Positions 1 through 13,391 of a stretch of 34,621 nt of DNA are shown piece by piece. The stretch spans positions 1-34,621 of the forward strand of contig JANQHL010000085.1 of the NCBI GenBank assembly GCA_028277085.1, read 5' to 3'. The notes beneath the pieces were generated by a model. It was not told where the DNA came from. It made no database searches and was given only the letters and a program-made list of their open reading frames with translations. The translations under genes were made by a program, and so were the position numbers. How positions within the stretch are numbered: position 1 is the first letter of the stretch; each line of letters opens with the position of its first letter. This stretch comes from Flavobacteriaceae bacterium. Its GTDB lineage: Bacteria; Bacteroidota; Bacteroidia; Flavobacteriales; Flavobacteriaceae.

Positions 1-2379
1 TTATCTCCTTTTGTTCCCGGCGTATTGCATAGCCTCTCCCTTACCAAAGCCGTAACTAAATCCTAAAGAAACGAACCGTGCCCTAAAACTTCTATTGAAC
101 ACCTCAAAATCATTTTGAACAATTTGATTTTCCCGAATACGAGATGCAAAGGCATCACGGACACTGAAATTCAAAACGGCTTTGCCTTTCAGGATCTTTT
201 TTCTAAGCCCGAAGTCCAGAAAGGCGATATCGTTTATTTCACCTTGTACGGTTTGAAAAGCGGACTGGTAATTTCCGGTGGTCTCAAAATCAATGTCCCA
301 GGGCATTTTTATTTTGGTCAAAAGCTTGGACGACCATTGATTGGCAGAAAAATCAAAGACGGTTCCTTCAAAGCTACCTTCACGTGAGAATGTATTGTAA
401 TTGAAATCTATATTGAAGGTAAGCCACTTTGCCGGGCTATACTTTGAATTGAACTCCAAACCCCATGCGCTGTTTGTACCAATGTTCTCGGGACGTGTTA
501 TATTCACATTGTTCTCAAAAAATGAGATCCGTTCAATAATGTCATCGGTAAAGCGATGATATACTCCAAGGTTCAAGGGGGTTTTCCCAATAAAGAAGAT
601 ACCGGTGACCTCATAGGAATCTGTGAACTCGGGTAACAAATTTGGATTTCCCTGTCGGATATTGAAGTTATTTCGAATATTGAAGAAGGGGTTCAAATCC
701 CAAAGGCGTGGCCGATAAATTCTTCGCGAATAGCCGGCTTGCAGGGAAACTTTTTCTGAGAACTTGTAGGAGGAGTGGACACTTGGGAAGAGATTGGTAT
801 AATTTTGATCATTCGCTTCGTTGGTATTGACCAAGAGGGTACCCACTTCTGTATTCTCTAATCGCACCCCTGCTTTAATACCCCACTTCTCCCCTTCAAA
901 GGCAGCTGTTCCATAAACCCCCAATACATTTTGGTCAAACTCAAAGATATTTGTCAGTCCGGGATCCGAAACGAATTCCCCATCTACCAAATCCTGAACC
1001 TCAAAATCGTTGCTCACTGCATTGAGGATGTATTGGGCTCCCGTTTCCACCGAGAAGGTATCTGAAAACGGTTTGGTATAGTCTACTTTAAAGGTAAAAA
1101 CAGATTCTTGAAAATCGGTACGCGTTTTCTGCTCCGCATCGCGGTCTTCTCCAGAAAGCGTGGCATCTAAAAAGTCGGAGCTTTGGTCCTTTCCAAAGAA
1201 ATTACCCAGCGCACTAAAGATCAGATCATGATCTTCGTTATCCTCAAAATCCTTTTTGTATTGGAGTTCATATTGGAACTTTGGATTTCGGGCATCGGTC
1301 ACTTCTGTACGTTCCCATTCTGAAGTCATATTCCCCGAGGCATCTAAAGCCGCAAAATTGGTAGTCGAAGGTTGGTCTTCTATTTCAAGGGCAAAATTCC
1401 CAGAAATCGTGAGCACGCTTGTAGGGCTAAAGTAATAGTCCGTGCCCAAAATAAAGTTGTAAAAGGCTTCGTTTCTGAATTCCTCCCCATTGGATAAAAT
1501 GGTATTGCCCGTGGTGAGGTCTGTGTTACGGACCGTGATCTCATTAGGAAGTTCACGATACCCCGCACCTAATTGGGCGAACAAATTCAATTTTTCGGTT
1601 CTCTTGTTTAAACTGATACCAATACTTTGGTTATCCGGGACACCGGTGAACAGGGAAATGGAACCGTTGAGCCCCTCACGTTCTTCTTTTTTTATCACAA
1701 TATTGATAATTCCCGAAGTACCTTCTGCATCATACTTTGCAGAAGGGTTGGTAATTACCTCTACCCTATCAATCATGTCGGCAGTAATGGTTCCCAAGGC
1801 ATTGTTTTCATCGCTGGTCATAATGGAAGGTTTCCCATTGATCAAAACTTGTACGCCCTGGCTCCCCCTAAGACTTATTTGTCCTTCTATATTAACATTG
1901 ACCGATGGTACATTGTTCAGTACTTCCAACGCACTGGCCCCAGTACTACTCAAATCTTTCCCCACGTTGAACACCCTTTTGTCCAGTTGGAAAACGGTCT
2001 GTGACACCTCTCCTTCAACAACCACTTCTTTCAACTGCTGGGCGTCCTCTTCCAACTGGATAACGCCTAAATCAATAGTCTGTGCATCCGTGAGATCAGC
2101 TTGGATGGTTTTCGTCTTAAAGCCCATAAAACTGATTGTTATGTAATAGCCCGTGGCGTCCGTCTCCAGTGAAAAGCTACCATTTTCAAGCGTGGTGCTT
2201 CCCGTTATTGGTTGATCAGTGACCTTGTCTGCTATCATCACCGTAGCATAGGCAACGGGCTGTCCCGAGTTTTTCTCAACCACCGTCCCAGTGTAGGCAA
2301 CCATTTTCTGCTGTGCCCGGAGATTGGGAACAAAAAGGAGCATACACATAATGCATATTGGGAATACCGCTTTTCTCAT
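1..2379 (-). CDS. Outer membrane beta-barrel / TonB-dependent receptor-like protein with N-terminal carboxypeptidase-like regulatory domain
   Basis: 792-aa ORF; signal peptide; N-terminal 'GTVVEKNSGQPVAYATVMI' CarboxypepD_reg-like; plug-like 'LNNVPSVNVNIEGQISLRGSQGVQVLINGKPS'; C-terminal beta-barrel repeats. Confidence 0.9.
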   Translation of the reverse strand: MRKAVFPICIMCMLLFVPNLRAQQKMVAYTGTVVEKNSGQPVAYATVMIADKVTDQPITGSTTLENGSFSLETDATGYYITISFMGFKTKTIQADLTDAQTIDLGVIQLEEDAQQLKEVVVEGEVSQTVFQLDKRVFNVGKDLSSTGASALEVLNNVPSVNVNIEGQISLRGSQGVQVLINGKPSIMTSDENNALGTITADMIDRVEVITNPSAKYDAEGTSGIINIVIKKEEREGLNGSISLFTGVPDNQSIGISLNKRTEKLNLFAQLGAGYRELPNEITVRNTDLTTGNTILSNGEEFRNEAFYNFILGTDYYFSPTSVLTISGNFALEIEDQPSTTNFAALDASGNMTSEWERTEVTDARNPKFQYELQYKKDFEDNEDHDLIFSALGNFFGKDQSSDFLDATLSGEDRDAEQKTRTDFQESVFTFKVDYTKPFSDTFSVETGAQYILNAVSNDFEVQDLVDGEFVSDPGLTNIFEFDQNVLGVYGTAAFEGEKWGIKAGVRLENTEVGTLLVNTNEANDQNYTNLFPSVHSSYKFSEKVSLQAGYSRRIYRPRLWDLNPFFNIRNNFNIRQGNPNLLPEFTDSYEVTGIFFIGKTPLNLGVYHRFTDDIIERISFFENNVNITRPENIGTNSAWGLEFNSKYSPAKWLTFNIDFNYNTFSREGSFEGTVFDFSANQWSSKLLTKIKMPWDIDFETTGNYQSAFQTVQGEINDIAFLDFGLRKKILKGKAVLNFSVRDAFASRIRENQIVQNDFEVFNRSFRARFVSLGFSYGFGKGEAMQYAGNKRR

Positions 2380-2500
2380 TTTTATTGATCACAAATTCTA
2401 ACGTAAAACTCGTCAAAGAAGGCATCCTCTGAAATTTTTTCCCGCAAACGACTACCCTTTTACCCTGAACAACATTGATTGAAGTGTTTACCCATATCCT

Positions 2501-2571
2501 GCAGTTTGGAGCTTAAAAAACGTCGTTCAGGGTATACCATTTCTTTAACTACTTTAATACAAATACTTTTG
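2501..2571 (+). promoter_or_regulatory. Candidate LytTR-type promoter P0: GCAGTTTGG-N12-GTCGTTCAG-N33-TACTTTTG
   Basis: Half-sites at 2501-2509 and 2522-2530 (21 bp apart); -7 box TAnnTTTG at 2564-2571, upstream of the LytS/LytTR operon. Confidence 0.6.
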
Positions 2572-2590
2572 CGTTTATTAAAATAGGATC

Positions 2591-3601
2591 ATGTCAATTG
2601 TTAGAAAAGAGATTGTTTTTCAAGTTGTTCTGATTACTATCGTATTCCTATTCTATTCATTCGACAGCGAGGACCCCGGATTTCTTTTGTCCCAGGTGGC
2701 TTTTTTTACAACACACATTATAGCGGCATTAACTATCGGCTATTGGTTGATGCCCTATTTTCTATATCGCAGAAAGTATTGGCAATTTTTTACCTATGTA
2801 CTCCTGGTAGTGGCCCTGGTTATCTTAGTAGAAGAACTCGTCCTGGAACAGATTTTCTTTCCGGGTACAAAAAGGGCGAGGTCATTTCCTGGTGTCTTTT
2901 TTTCGCTATTAGAGGTTTTACCCGTGATTGCCATCCTGGCAGGATTTAAATTTGGATGGGATGCGCTCCAAAAGCAAGAACAGATAGAAGCCTTAAAAAG
3001 TACGGTTAAGGAAAGTGAGCTGCAGTTTCTAAAATCCCAAATCAACCCGCATTTTTTGTTTAATAATCTCAACAATCTGTATTCTTACGCCCTCGACGGA
3101 TCACCAAAAACTCCTGAAATTATATTGGAGCTTAGCGGACTTTTGCGCTATATGCTGTACGAATGCAAGGAAGAGTTTGTACCCCTACATAAAGAAATTG
3201 AGCAATTGCATAACTTTATAAAACTAAGCAAACTACAGATTGAGGATAGAGGGACGGTCCGTTTTGTTGTTCATGATATTGAAACTGGATTCAAGATTGC
3301 CCCCCTAATTTTAATCGTCTTTATCGAGAATGCCTTCAAACACAGTCAGGCCGGACAAAGTGAAAACATTACCATTGATATGCAGTTGTATATGAAGCAT
3401 GAAACATTGTATTTCAAATGCAGCAATAATCATCAATCCGCTACCAATCTTGATGCATTGGATTCCGGAATAGGGCTTACGAATGTAAAAAAGCGTTTAC
3501 AACTGCTTTATCCCAACAGACACCTTCTAAAAATAGACGAAGACAGGAACAAATACCAGGTGGACCTCTCATTAGTGTTACGTAAAATGCAAGAAAAATG
3601 A
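2591..3601 (+). CDS. LytS-family sensor histidine kinase
   Basis: N-terminal TM helices; 'FLKSQINPHFLFNNLNNLYSYAL' His_kinase motif; N-box 'IENAFKHS'; 'GIGLTNVKKRL'. Confidence 0.93.
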   Translation: MSIVRKEIVFQVVLITIVFLFYSFDSEDPGFLLSQVAFFTTHIIAALTIGYWLMPYFLYRRKYWQFFTYVLLVVALVILVEELVLEQIFFPGTKRARSFPGVFFSLLEVLPVIAILAGFKFGWDALQKQEQIEALKSTVKESELQFLKSQINPHFLFNNLNNLYSYALDGSPKTPEIILELSGLLRYMLYECKEEFVPLHKEIEQLHNFIKLSKLQIEDRGTVRFVVHDIETGFKIAPLILIVFIENAFKHSQAGQSENITIDMQLYMKHETLYFKCSNNHQSATNLDALDSGIGLTNVKKRLQLLYPNRHLLKIDEDRNKYQVDLSLVLRKMQEK

Positions 3602-4302
3602 CATGCATCATCGTTGAAGACCAGCCGCCGGCGCAGCGTATTCTTCAAAAATATATTGAAGAAATGGGTTCTTTGGAACTCAAGGGTACTTTTTCTGATG
3701 CCCTAAAGGCTATTGAGTTTTTGAAGACCCACCCTATCGATCTGCTTTTTCTTGACATCCACTTACCCAAACTTTCCGGAATCGACTTTTTGAGGACGAT
3801 GTCTAACCCGCCAAGTGTTATCCTCACCACGGCCTTCTCTGAATACGCCCTGGAGAGCTATGAATTTAACGTTATTGATTATTTGTTGAAACCCTTTTCA
3901 TTCCAACGGTTTCTAAAAGCGGTCACCAAAGTGTCGGAACTAAAAAAACAACCTGCACCCTATGCGGAACACCATAACATAAATACTCCAAAAACGGAGA
4001 TCTACATCAAGTCAGGTTACGAACATATTAAGATCAGTATAGCGACCATACAAAACATTTCTGCCAATTCCGATTACACAGAAATTGTGACAAGCGATAA
4101 AAACTACCTTTCCAGTGAACCTTTGCATTTTTGGTCCAATACCCTTCCTGCTAATCAGTTTTACCGTATCCATAAATCCCATATCGTAAATACCAGGATG
4201 ATAGCGAAAATCATAGGAAACCAGGTCACCCTTACCGGAGGAGCAAAATTACCCATAGGCCGGGCATACAAAGAAGGCTTTATGAAAGCCATTCTGGAGT
4301 AA
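3598..4302 (+). CDS. LytTR-family response regulator
   Basis: Receiver 'LLFLDIHLPKLSG'; C-terminal LytTR domain 'FYRIHKSHIVNTRMI'; ATGA overlap with the upstream kinase stop. Confidence 0.95.
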   Translation: MTCIIVEDQPPAQRILQKYIEEMGSLELKGTFSDALKAIEFLKTHPIDLLFLDIHLPKLSGIDFLRTMSNPPSVILTTAFSEYALESYEFNVIDYLLKPFSFQRFLKAVTKVSELKKQPAPYAEHHNINTPKTEIYIKSGYEHIKISIATIQNISANSDYTEIVTSDKNYLSSEPLHFWSNTLPANQFYRIHKSHIVNTRMIAKIIGNQVTLTGGAKLPIGRAYKEGFMKAILE

Positions 4303-9619: not shown

Positions 9620-10756
9620 ATGCAGTACCTGTTTGTTTCCAGCGGGAGCCTTACGCTATTTATCATTGTCCTGATCCTCGGAAGAAGGAATAGGTCTTTG
9701 CCGAATACAGTTCTTGTAGTCTGGTTAACGGTATTTGTGCTCAATCTTGTATCACTTTTCATATTGTATGAAGCTGACAGACCTTTTTCCATAGCTCAAA
9801 ACTTGCTACTTGAATTCAGTGAAGTCTCCATTTTTGCCCATGGCCCCTTGTTCTGGTTATACACCAAATCGTTAACGGAAGAGGGTTTTGCAATGCACTG
9901 GAAATGGGCGTATCACTTTATTCCATTTGCAATAGCCTTCTCGTTGTTTCTGGTATATATTTTTAGTAGAATGGAGATGGCATCTCTCCTAAGAAACACA
10001 ATTACCATTTTAAAAATGATCAGTTTGGGAACCTATATTATACTAGTGCTTGTCAAACTAAGGGGCCATCGCATTCGGGTAGCTCATATTTTTTCCAATA
10101 TTGAGGAAAAGAATTTGAATTGGATCTCTTTCTTAGGCTGGGGAATTCTCGGCATTTGGGCTGTTGCCGGTGGTAGCCTGCTACTAGATCGACTAACAAC
10201 AATCCATATTCCGCAATATGGAGGGTTTATTACCCATATCTCCACATGTATTTTCATTTTTGTGATGGGCTATTTTGGTCTCAATCAACCCTCGGTTTTT
10301 AATACCCATCCTAATGTTTTGCTGGATTCAGATGCCCAGAGAAGTCGTAGCAAAAAGGGCATCGAGAATGAATTTCCGAAATATAAAAAATCCGGTTTGG
10401 GCCTCAAAGGTTCAAAAAGCATCCAAAAAGCCCTCTTGTATAGCATGAAAACCGAAAGACCGTATTTGGAAAAAGAACTTACCCTGTATAATCTGGCAGA
10501 ACAATTAGCGGTACAACCCAATCATCTTTCCCAGGTAATTAATAGCCTTGAAGGAAAGAATTTTTTCGATTTTATCAATACCTACCGCGTGGAAACCGCA
10601 AAAGAGAAAATAAGAAAGGGTGGTTGTCAAAAACTGACCTTACTGGGGATAGCTTTTGATAGTGGTTTCAATTCCAAAGCTTCGTTCAACCGGGCCTTTA
10701 AAAAAGTGACCGGACAAACCCCAACAGAATACCGGAGGTCGCTTGAAGTCGACTGA
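9620..10756 (+). CDS. Membrane-anchored AraC-family transcriptional regulator (7-8 TM plus HTH_18)
   Basis: Multiple TM helices then 'LTLLGIAFDSGFNSKASFNRAFKKVTGQTPTEYRR'. Confidence 0.93.
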   Translation: MQYLFVSSGSLTLFIIVLILGRRNRSLPNTVLVVWLTVFVLNLVSLFILYEADRPFSIAQNLLLEFSEVSIFAHGPLFWLYTKSLTEEGFAMHWKWAYHFIPFAIAFSLFLVYIFSRMEMASLLRNTITILKMISLGTYIILVLVKLRGHRIRVAHIFSNIEEKNLNWISFLGWGILGIWAVAGGSLLLDRLTTIHIPQYGGFITHISTCIFIFVMGYFGLNQPSVFNTHPNVLLDSDAQRSRSKKGIENEFPKYKKSGLGLKGSKSIQKALLYSMKTERPYLEKELTLYNLAEQLAVQPNHLSQVINSLEGKNFFDFINTYRVETAKEKIRKGGCQKLTLLGIAFDSGFNSKASFNRAFKKVTGQTPTEYRRSLEVD

Positions 10757-10783: not shown

Positions 10784-10866
10784 GGCAGGCCCCTACCCAT
10801 GTGGCACCAGATACTAACTAAGTCTATAAAAATCCAACATCGTTTTACAAGGTTTTGTTGAATATC

Positions 10867-10893
10867 TGCATCAATTTTCGAGACTTTCGTCTT
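10867..10893 (+). promoter_or_regulatory. Candidate ECF promoter / shared motif copy 1 (TGCATCAATTTTCGAGACTTTCGTCTT)
   Basis: 22/27 identical to 11761-11787; ends 36 nt before the ATG of the 59-aa ORF. Confidence 0.5.
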
Positions 10894-10929
10894 AAAGACT
10901 AAAAAGGTAAAATTTGTAAAACAAAAATA

Positions 10930-11109
10930 ATGAAAACAGGAAAATTGTATAAAAAGCAAGTTGACGTTTTAGATGGCAGATCCTATGACACCGTAGCCAT
11001 GGAACCCAAACGGAATGCTCCCTGCTGTGAGTTGCCGTCCGACGGCTCTTCTTGTTGCGACAAATCCGAATCCAAAGCAGTACGTTTAAAGGAGACCAGT
11101 TGTTGCTAG
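10930..11109 (+). CDS. Small cysteine-rich protein, 59 aa, three vicinal Cys pairs (not in supplied ORF track)
   Basis: Own translation: MKTGKLYKKQVDVLDGRSYDTVAMEPKRNAPCCELPSDGSSCCDKSESKAVRLKETSCC*; same strand as sigZ; shared upstream motif. Confidence 0.65.
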   Translation: MKTGKLYKKQVDVLDGRSYDTVAMEPKRNAPCCELPSDGSSCCDKSESKAVRLKETSCC

Positions 11110-11224
11110 AAAAAATGACCTATCCTACATTCTTGTTTTCAAAAGCCCTTTTTTCAGGGTACTTTGATGTCAAATGAAGATAGGACTCTTTCGGCGCTAT
11201 TATTCATTAATTTTATTAAGCAAA

Positions 11225-11743
11225 ATGGAAAAAGCAATAGCACAATATTATGGTCCTCTCTTTCTGTACATCAGAAAAAGGGTCAACAATACATTGGACG
11301 CCGAGGATCTGACACAAGAAGTGTTCTATAAATTTTCAAAGTCCTGGAACGTGCAAAATGCCAAAAGTTGGTTGTACACCATTGCAAAGAATACGATTAT
11401 TGACTATTACAGGACCAATAAAAAAGCTAACCAAGACCTCGCAAAAGTAATCGTAGAAGATGCGAAAGAAGATAAGAGCGCTTTTGAAGAGCTGAGCACT
11501 TGCATTCTTCCGTTTGTCGAAAAACTGCCAGAGGAGTATCGGACTATAGTAAAGCTTTCTGAATTGGAAGATGTTCCTCAGAAAAAGATCGCGGAACAAT
11601 TGGACATGAACTATGTTACTGTACGCTCTAAGGTGCAAAGGGGAAGAAAAAAATTAAAAACCCTGATTGCAGACTGCTGCCAAATTACGCAAAGCGGACA
11701 AGGAGGCATTATTGATTATCAAAGTAAAAAGAACTGCTGTTAG
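11225..11743 (+). CDS. sigZ: ECF-type RNA polymerase sigma factor, SigZ-like, with Cys-rich C-terminus
   Basis: Region 2 'DAEDLTQEVFYKFSK...WLYTIAKNTIIDYYR'; region 4 'LPEEYRTIVKLSELEDVPQKKIAEQLDMNYVTVRSKVQRGRKKLK'; tail 'DCCQ...IIDYQSKKNCC'; start taken at the internal Met (ORF track begins at 11174). Confidence 0.88.
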   Translation: MEKAIAQYYGPLFLYIRKRVNNTLDAEDLTQEVFYKFSKSWNVQNAKSWLYTIAKNTIIDYYRTNKKANQDLAKVIVEDAKEDKSAFEELSTCILPFVEKLPEEYRTIVKLSELEDVPQKKIAEQLDMNYVTVRSKVQRGRKKLKTLIADCCQITQSGQGGIIDYQSKKNCC

Positions 11744-11760
11744 GATTGCCCAATTTTCTG

Positions 11761-11787
11761 TGCATCATTTTTCAAGCAATTCGTCTT
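11761..11787 (+). promoter_or_regulatory. Candidate ECF promoter / shared motif copy 2 (TGCATCATTTTTCAAGCAATTCGTCTT)
   Basis: 22/27 identical to 10867-10893; ends 35 nt before the ATG at 11823. Confidence 0.5.
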
Positions 11788-11822: not shown

Positions 11823-12284
11823 ATGAGACTAAGTTCAAAAATGCTACGCCATCTTATAGTGTTGCTATTTCTGCTTGTTGGCAGTGAAATGTATAGTCAG
11901 TCTGCCTGTTCCAGTGATGAAAAGCAGGAGAAGACCTGTGCCACCGACCAGGTAACAAAAAGTGAGTCAACCGTTGGCTGTAAACCCTCAAGTTGTCGTG
12001 GGGCACAGACTAAATTTAGCGAGGCCAAAGTGCTGACCGACCTTAGAAACGATTTGGTTTCTTTGAAATCCACACTTCACGAAGGTGCAATCGAGATGCA
12101 GGATCTTGTTGGGGAATCTGACACGGAAAGTCTTGAACTCATGGCCAGGGAGATTCAGTCTCTAGAAGCTTTTTTTAGCACAAAGTTCGACACTACTTTT
12201 CCCAGGTTCGTATTACCCCAAAACAGGGCAAAACAGGTGAGCTTTTTGAAAGGGCGCCTACAGGGACTTCAGAAATTACTTTAA
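11823..12284 (+). CDS. Exported Cys-rich small protein of unknown function
   Basis: Signal peptide 'MLRHLIVLLFLLVGSEMYSQ' followed by ACSSDEKQEKTC...VGCKPSSC and a helical C-terminus. Confidence 0.8.
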   Translation: MRLSSKMLRHLIVLLFLLVGSEMYSQSACSSDEKQEKTCATDQVTKSESTVGCKPSSCRGAQTKFSEAKVLTDLRNDLVSLKSTLHEGAIEMQDLVGESDTESLELMAREIQSLEAFFSTKFDTTFPRFVLPQNRAKQVSFLKGRLQGLQKLL

Positions 12285-12359
12285 GGGCGTTTTTCAATCA
12301 ATTCAAACAAGGGTTCCCAAGTTATCAAGCATCCTTTCACCATCTCTCTTGCTTAACAT

Positions 12360-13391
12360 ATGACCTTTAGAAAGATCGTCAGCTTATCTATCGCCTTCAG
12401 CTTTGTTGTTTTGTTTGTTACGGGTATACTGTCGTATTTTATTGACTATTCACGAGCGCTGGCATCAATTCACACCGTTTTTGGTTTCTTATTTGGCTTG
12501 GGAATCGTGCTTCATGTGACCAACAACCATAAACCCTTAAAACGTTACCTCTCTGGGGCAGTCGTATGGGGTATTCTTTTGATAGGTATCCTTATCCTTT
12601 CTGGTACTTACCGCCAAATCTCACCTGTAAAAAGCTTTATGGACATCGGGGCAAGACTCAAAGCGAACAACACCATCCATGAATCCCTTTCAAAACAGGT
12701 TTTTGTTGAAATGGATTTGAGCAATGATATTTTACTGTCCATTGATCTGGTAAAGGGGGAACACTACTGGCATCCACAAATGGCTATCTGGACGGAGGAT
12801 ATGGAAGGAAACTATCTTGAAACCCTGTTCGTCTCCAAGGCAACAGCTAAGGGTTTGTTCTTTGGAGGCAGGACCAAGGACAACTTTAAAACGCTTGATG
12901 AAAACAATTCAACCCAAAAAGAATATCGTCGGGTGAATGCCCTACCGGTATGGTCGCACAAAAGAGGGGTGTTGTGTGAGGATGGAGGATTGGTTCCAAC
13001 ACGGGAAAATCCCTTGCCTGACACCATAAGTGGCGAAACAATTTCAGACAATTTTTATCTGAGAACATCCACCCAATACCATCAACAATTCAGGCTCAAA
13101 TTGGAACTTAACGTGGCTTTCGATGACAACGAATACTACTCGGAATTCGATTTTCCTGATGATGATATCTACCACAATGGAACAGGTCAATTGGGTCAAC
13201 CCTCGATTGTGTTCCAGAGCATTATTGACATGAACGATTCCAACACCCATTATTTGATGAAGTTATCAGGGCATGGGCATCATTCGGCAAGAACAGGGGT
13301 AATTTATCAAGACAGGTCAACCCTTACCACTGCGCTCGAAATTGTTGAACGGATTGTGGTTGGGGCGGTAAATAAACCTGCCAGTGAATAA
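12360..13391 (+). CDS. Membrane protein, DUF4405-like N-terminus with DUF2271-like soluble domain
   Basis: N-terminal TM helices with conserved His positions ('SIHTVFGFLFGLGIVLHV'); 'PQMAIWTEDMEGNYLETLFVS'. Confidence 0.65.
   Translation: MTFRKIVSLSIAFSFVVLFVTGILSYFIDYSRALASIHTVFGFLFGLGIVLHVTNNHKPLKRYLSGAVVWGILLIGILILSGTYRQISPVKSFMDIGARLKANNTIHESLSKQVFVEMDLSNDILLSIDLVKGEHYWHPQMAIWTEDMEGNYLETLFVSKATAKGLFFGGRTKDNFKTLDENNSTQKEYRRVNALPVWSHKRGVLCEDGGLVPTRENPLPDTISGETISDNFYLRTSTQYHQQFRLKLELNVAFDDNEYYSEFDFPDDDIYHNGTGQLGQPSIVFQSIIDMNDSNTHYLMKLSGHGHHSARTGVIYQDRSTLTTALEIVERIVVGAVNKPASE

Follow-up and report, generated by a model that had tools for sequence, protein, structure and literature searches.

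A probable promoter element that accompanies sigZ: predicted recognition by SigZ-family ECF sigma factors and a possible role in metal or metalloid thiol stress

SigZ of Bacillus subtilis (TIGR02959 / PRK09637) is mentioned in the literature without any function (PMC10141391), and no link of SigZ to metals or arsenic was found in the literature searched, the coverage of which was partial. Precedents for on-board metal sensing by ECF sigma factors are CorE and OrbS (PMC8999054, PMC3107203, PMC9023288). CorE and CorE2 of Myxococcus xanthus (ECF238, the former ECF44) are activated by metal binding to their own cysteines (PMC8999054, PMC3107203), and the C-terminal cysteines of OrbS from Burkholderia cenocepacia represent an on-board metal sensor (PMC9023288).

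Here we analysed a window of 34,621 nt from a Flavobacteriaceae bacterium (contig JANQHL010000085.1) which encodes a SigZ-family sigma factor between two copies of a putative promoter. The features are collected in Table 1. All of them are located on the plus strand in the order P1, 59-aa ORF, sigZ, P2, 153-aa protein and DUF4405-like membrane protein, with an AraC-family gene upstream at 9620-10756. The sigZ ORF opens at 11174, whereby the 17 extra N-terminal residues of this longer form are not conserved. Since the ORF of the sister species and those of relatives begin at the position equivalent to 11225, the comparison indicates that the ATG at 11225, and not 11174, is very probably the start, which puts sigZ 115 nt 3' of the Cys-rich ORF. 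A weak terminator-like hairpin at 11145-11160 lies in between and could lower read-through into sigZ. The 59-aa microprotein belongs to no Pfam or NCBIfam family. Homologues of the 153-aa protein are found in the SigZ clusters of L004, L006, L034, L035 and L067, several of them with their own promoter copy. In these same clusters the CKPSSCRGA protein and the DUF4405-like protein (11823-13391) form a conserved pair, and both are possibly part of one transcription unit. The remaining genes of the window show no curated NCBIfam match bearing on metals.

Table 1. Features of the sigZ locus in the window and loci with the 32-36-aa Cys-rich family.
Feature	Position	Strand	Description
P1	10867..10893	+	TGCATCAATTTTCGAGACTTTCGTCTT; -35 TGCATC and -10 CGTCTT, separated by 15 nt with a T-tract; SigZ dependence predicted; stands at the head of the unit of Cys-rich ORF and sigZ
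Cys-rich microprotein, 59 aa	10930..11109	+	contains three CC pairs; occupies the position that metallothionein-like 33-aa ORFs have before sigZ in relatives
sigZ, ECF sigma factor (sigma2 + sigma4)	11225..11743	+	conserved linker Cys, C-terminal CC...CC tail
P2	11761..11787	+	TGCATCATTTTTCAAGCAATTCGTCTT; -35 TGCATC and -10 CGTCTT, separated by 15 nt with a T-tract; SigZ dependence predicted
153-aa protein P0003, predicted secreted, Cys-containing	11823..12284	+	N-terminal hydrophobic segment; CKPSSCRGA..KFSEAKVLTDLR; predicted SigZ target
343-aa membrane protein	12360..13391	+	N-terminus weakly DUF4405-like; accompanies the 153-aa protein
32-36-aa family	upstream of sigZ		L015, L017, L018, L020, L021, L023, L025-L029, L032, L042, L044
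32-36-aa family (continued)	upstream of sigZ		L047-L050, L053, L055-L057, L059-L061, L079, L080

The sigma protein of the window (P0002) comprises regions sigma2 and sigma4 only (Pfam Sigma70_r2 at residues 22-84, Sigma70_r4_2 at residues 115-161, both above the gathering score) and meets the criterion for ECF (group 4) sigma factors. SigZ is its best-scoring family by a wide margin, with a match that spans the profile (next family 91.5), but the protein remains below both curated equivalog cut-offs (TIGR02959, 155.9 vs 168.65 bits; PRK09637, 170.9 vs 212). Likewise the SigZ models are the best match for the SigZ-family proteins of other loci, mostly under the curated cut-off. In a tree with 15 control ECFs the SigZ proteins form one clade (support 100/99), which takes in L093, a protein over both cut-offs; other ECF groups were narrowly sampled. 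As far as can be judged from sequence, the window protein fulfils the criteria of common ancestry and shared promoter and is thus considered SigZ in the broad sense.

A particular feature of the family are its cysteines. Across 77 SigZ sequences Cys occupies one linker column (83%), two adjacent columns after sigma4 (CC, 92% and 90%) and one column in the tail (87%), compared to 0% at all four columns in 30 control ECFs. In the window protein the candidate sensing cysteines are C93, C151/C152 and C171/C172, counted from ATG 11225. CorE and CorE2 resemble SigZ in lacking an anti-sigma gene, in the Cys-rich C-terminal extension and in a metal-handling regulon, whereby the metal response of SigZ is inferred. 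The extension criterion of CorE-like proteins is met by the CC after sigma4 and the tail Cys. In contrast, the linker between sigma2 and sigma4 holds a CXC motif in CorE-like proteins, whereas SigZ exhibits a single linker Cys (ELSTCIL in the window protein) and a short tail; SigZ was not filed as CorE-like because the CXC motif is missing. OrbS shares with SigZ the C-terminal cysteines of an ECF sigma factor, but it is an iron-starvation sigma factor inhibited by Fe(II) and differs in regulon and promoter. An AlphaFold2 model of SigZ built on six close sequences (pLDDT 57) lacked the quality needed to place the conserved cysteines or to see whether they meet, and hence no structural claim is made.

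P1 and P2 are identical at 22 of 27 positions and end 36 and 35 nt 5' of the ATGs at 10930 and 11823, respectively. These sequences, coordinates and distances, as reported in the initial annotation, were all exact on re-check. Both are the sole intergenic copies in the genome: a whole-genome search allowing up to three mismatches returns P1 and P2 only, and the looser pattern TGCATC-N15/16-CGTCT adds a single match within a coding sequence. The sister species L033 (Croceivirga sp., SigZ 91% identical) retains both elements. Its P2 is identical but for one spacer base, while its P1 has an intact -10 and a -35 reading CGCATC (T1 of TGCATC replaced by C). An inverted repeat, TTTTACAA/TTGTAAAA, flanks P1 at 10842-10855 and 10909-10922 with its core retained in the sister species; it is a possible operator, perhaps for the upstream AraC-family regulator.

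The element recurs beside SigZ genes of Flavobacteriaceae and other Bacteroidia as well as beside genes of the SigZ family that are carried by Priestia, Sulfuricella, Ideonella and enterobacterial plasmids. The consensus reads TGCRTC-WTTTT-N10/11-CGTCTW with 15-16 nt between the hexamers. In 301 Flavobacteriaceae genomes the pattern TGCATCWTTTTN{10,11}CGTCT yields 31 matches versus one for the reversed-pattern control. For 27 of these a sigZ ORF is no more than 1.5 kb away, one further match lies in the SigZ cluster of L067 before the P0003 homologue, and three are within coding sequences (L039, L054, L065). The form TGCRTCTTTTT with spacer N{10,11} shows 10 matches in 295 Bacteroidia genomes (2 for the control), nine of them near sigZ. 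The motif is present in 6 of ~18 genomes with a clear SigZ vs 1 of 277 others (Fisher 1e-7). With a spacer of N{9,10}, which misses the 16-nt spacing, five matches are obtained, not above the reversed control.

Among 58 SigZ loci identified through their protein, 23 reach at least 11 of 13 matches when scored with the window motif; none of 30 control ECF loci and 10 of 1160 shuffles do so. A relaxed motif is detected at 32 of 59 SigZ loci, compared to none of the 30 control loci, which represent one ECF family, and is not found in 204 kb of control sequence. In the remaining 27 of 59 SigZ loci the relaxed motif does not adjoin sigZ; in L034 and L035 it is located farther away but within the cluster, and no motif is seen in the permease-linked clade of L009, L075, L077 and L094. 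Altogether 67 distinct instances were collected, with diverged spacers, a spacing of 15 or 16 nt and sense orientation, usually ~25-36 nt from the start codon.

In some relatives (L006, L013, L070, L071) a copy directly precedes sigZ. L013 harbours three copies, at 1387, 2000 and 2922, which precede sigZ, arsM and the gene of a PatB-like C-S lyase, and represents a natural regulon suited to testing. The Priestia copy lies before a divergent gene beside the SigZ-family gene, and the Sulfuricella copy before a TolC/RND operon beside that gene. In Ideonella and Citrobacter the copy separates the sigma gene from a permease gene. Moreover, a structural paper on SigW notes a C at -34 in the promoter of B. 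subtilis SigZ (PMC6713349), which agrees with the prediction from the TGC of TGCATC.

Could the resemblance of P1 and P2 be fortuitous, or a trace of duplicated sequence without function? A match of 22 in 27 between AT-rich regions is short, and no listed repeat of the region contained it (seed 9). However, ungapped 27-mer matches of 22 were not obtained in any of 3000 trials with dinucleotide shuffles of both upstream regions in any register (best match 21, or 20 at equal ATG distance), and the fact that the element recurs independently at SigZ loci, its spacers having diverged, refutes a chance repeat, which we regard as having practically no remaining support. It is also conceivable that the element is not a promoter at all but the binding site of another regulator, such as the AraC-family protein encoded upstream, and the inverted repeat around P1 would fit an operator. 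Against this, the two-block -35/-10 layout, its spacing, its orientation and its distance to the start codon are all kept, no AraC gene is seen beside the element where it follows SigZ across phyla, and a scan of the region for sigma-70-type promoters found none on the plus strand. The operator reading was rejected on account of the conserved promoter layout and the linkage to SigZ across phyla, and we consider it very improbable.

The comparison instead favours SigZ-dependent promoters. That the two blocks are spaced like -35/-10 elements had been noted from the two copies alone, and this layout is maintained across instances. The proposal that the ECF sigma factor encoded between them reads both copies gains support, as the promoter follows SigZ across genera, classes and phyla and is absent from the control ECF loci; experimental data do not exist. 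Recognition of the P1/P2 element by SigZ is thereby strongly inferred, not shown, and we hold it to be highly likely. The earlier remark that sigZ itself lacks an equally good copy is literally true, but P1 heads the unit of Cys-rich ORF and sigZ, as in relatives. Since the copy of relatives precedes either a Cys-rich ORF before sigZ or sigZ directly, P1 is presumed to be the sigZ promoter as well. We are rather confident that P1 creates an autoregulated operon of Cys-rich microprotein and sigZ. The combined statement, that P1 and P2 are both SigZ promoters and P1 is autoregulatory, is likely, although no transcription data are at hand.

Cys-rich micro-ORFs between promoter and sigZ are not restricted to the window. 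They are found 5' of sigZ in 31 of 76 distinct SigZ loci vs none of 30 control loci and belong to at least two unrelated sequence types. Most fall into a family of 32-36 aa (MKNxECTCNCxxCxxGxCxxCTCxxCTCxxCNC), about one-third Cys with near-invariant spacing (Table 1). In L085 a different Cys-rich ORF of 39 aa takes this place. Size and Cys content fit the metallothionein criterion, metal binding being inferred only. Like bacterial metallothioneins, the 32-36-aa proteins (CTCNC..C..G.C..CTC..CTC..CNC) are tiny, about one-third Cys and tied to a stress regulator, and the CC-rich forms of 58-59 aa are likewise tied to one. Unlike them, the representative of the 33-aa metallothionein-like family matches no described family (no hit in Pfam, NCBIfam or PDB, and no metal-binding data). 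Judged by these searches the family appears to be undescribed.

The neighbourhood of sigZ points to arsenic in part of the family. An arsenic-type gene is present within 1.5 kb at 20 of 59 SigZ loci vs 1 of 30 controls (p=7e-4). Weak or cross-family matches underlie two or three of these 20 cases. The ArsO, ArsM and ArsI calls are over the NCBIfam cut-offs. On the plasmids of Sulfuricella and Ideonella the sigma gene lies inside annotated ars clusters. For the window genome the arsenic role is by association, because no arsM exceeds the cut-off and no recognised arsenic gene is located beside sigZ. The arsenic signal for SigZ is thus moderately supported in general and indirect for this genome. 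Besides, a flavoprotein that is only distantly ArsO-like adjoins SigZ at several loci (L034 at 1300-4050, L035, L072, L083, L099), accompanied in three of these five by an MFS transporter; the flavoprotein is found in several Bacteroidia and also in Nonomuraea. Flavoprotein and transporter are a candidate for an undescribed arsenical-handling pair.

If the promoters are SigZ-dependent, stimulus and switch have to be discussed. A role in thiol-reactive metal or metalloid stress is suggested by the Cys columns of SigZ, the upstream Cys-rich micro-ORFs and the arsenic-type neighbours. From neighbours and microproteins we infer that a response of the SigZ regulon to metal or metalloid thiol stress is fairly probable, while for arsenic specifically the same evidence leaves the matter evenly balanced. 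The stimulus might instead be copper, zinc/cadmium, oxidants or electrophiles, with arsenic genes recruited in some lineages only. An arsenic neighbour is missing from most Flavobacteriaceae loci with the 33-aa protein, the window neighbours are not arsenic genes either, and the metals sensed by CorE and CorE2 are Cu and Cd/Zn (PMC8999054). However, in several lineages SigZ is repeatedly accompanied by arsM, arsO, arsI, arsC, acr3 and permeases, and arsenic-type genes or permeases are positioned directly behind the promoter in L012, L013, L024, L135 and L136. A stimulus other than arsenic remains a serious possibility, somewhat short of even. Concerning the switch, the Cys-rich microprotein could act as sensor or anti-sigma partner that restrains SigZ and frees it on metal binding, the sigma tail serving for docking only. 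Its location directly 5' of sigZ under the same promoter and the occurrence of unrelated sequence types would be in line with this, but over half of the SigZ loci have no such micro-ORF and still keep the Cys tail. The microprotein is therefore not a general switch, and we consider such a function unlikely. Direct sensing by the cysteines of SigZ itself, by analogy to CorE and OrbS, is a possibility just short of an even chance.

For SigZ-dependent promoters with sensing by the sigma factor, the following scheme is proposed. RNA polymerase, equipped with the ECF sigma factor of the SigZ family that is encoded between P1 and P2, would recognise both. P1 would drive the Cys-rich microprotein together with sigZ, resulting in a self-amplifying operon, and P2 would drive the secreted Cys-containing protein and probably also the membrane protein encoded next. 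The stimulus of SigZ-family regulons would be stress by thiol-reactive metals or metalloids, in most cases trivalent arsenic. SigZ itself would be the most probable switch, with linker Cys and C-terminal Cys tail binding the metalloid and altering its activity. The induced microprotein may sequester the metalloid and thereby possibly close the loop.

Beyond Bacteroidota, 1,359 plasmids, mostly enterobacterial (mainly of Klebsiella, Salmonella and Citrobacter), carry a gene of the SigZ family that resembles the one of Sulfuricella. In the one plasmid inspected its neighbours are genes for a permease and a thioredoxin-family protein, and the promoter (TGCATCCTTTT..CGTCTT) is placed between sigma and permease gene (L135, 4968-6912). 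Only one complete E. coli genome out of 5,426 has the exact L135 segment.

New in this analysis are the linker Cys and Cys tail of SigZ that are absent from control ECFs, the Cys-rich micro-ORFs upstream and the arsenic genes beside one-third of the loci. SigZ, so far without known function in the searchable literature, now has a predicted promoter that holds across phyla and with it a rule for finding its targets. It moreover gains a candidate function in thiol-reactive metalloid stress as well as a sensor candidate, and an unlisted family of tiny Cys-rich proteins is brought to light. The unit of SigZ-family, permease and thioredoxin genes with its own promoter copy belongs to a family on ~1,360 mostly enterobacterial plasmids. 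The broadest version remains tentative: SigZ may be a widespread direct sensor of trivalent arsenicals or soft metals, acting through one promoter, TGCRTC-N15/16-CGTCT, across phyla and accompanied in Bacteroidota by 33-aa metallothionein-like buffers. If true, direct-sensing SigZ would represent a layer of arsenic control separate from ArsR-type repressors.
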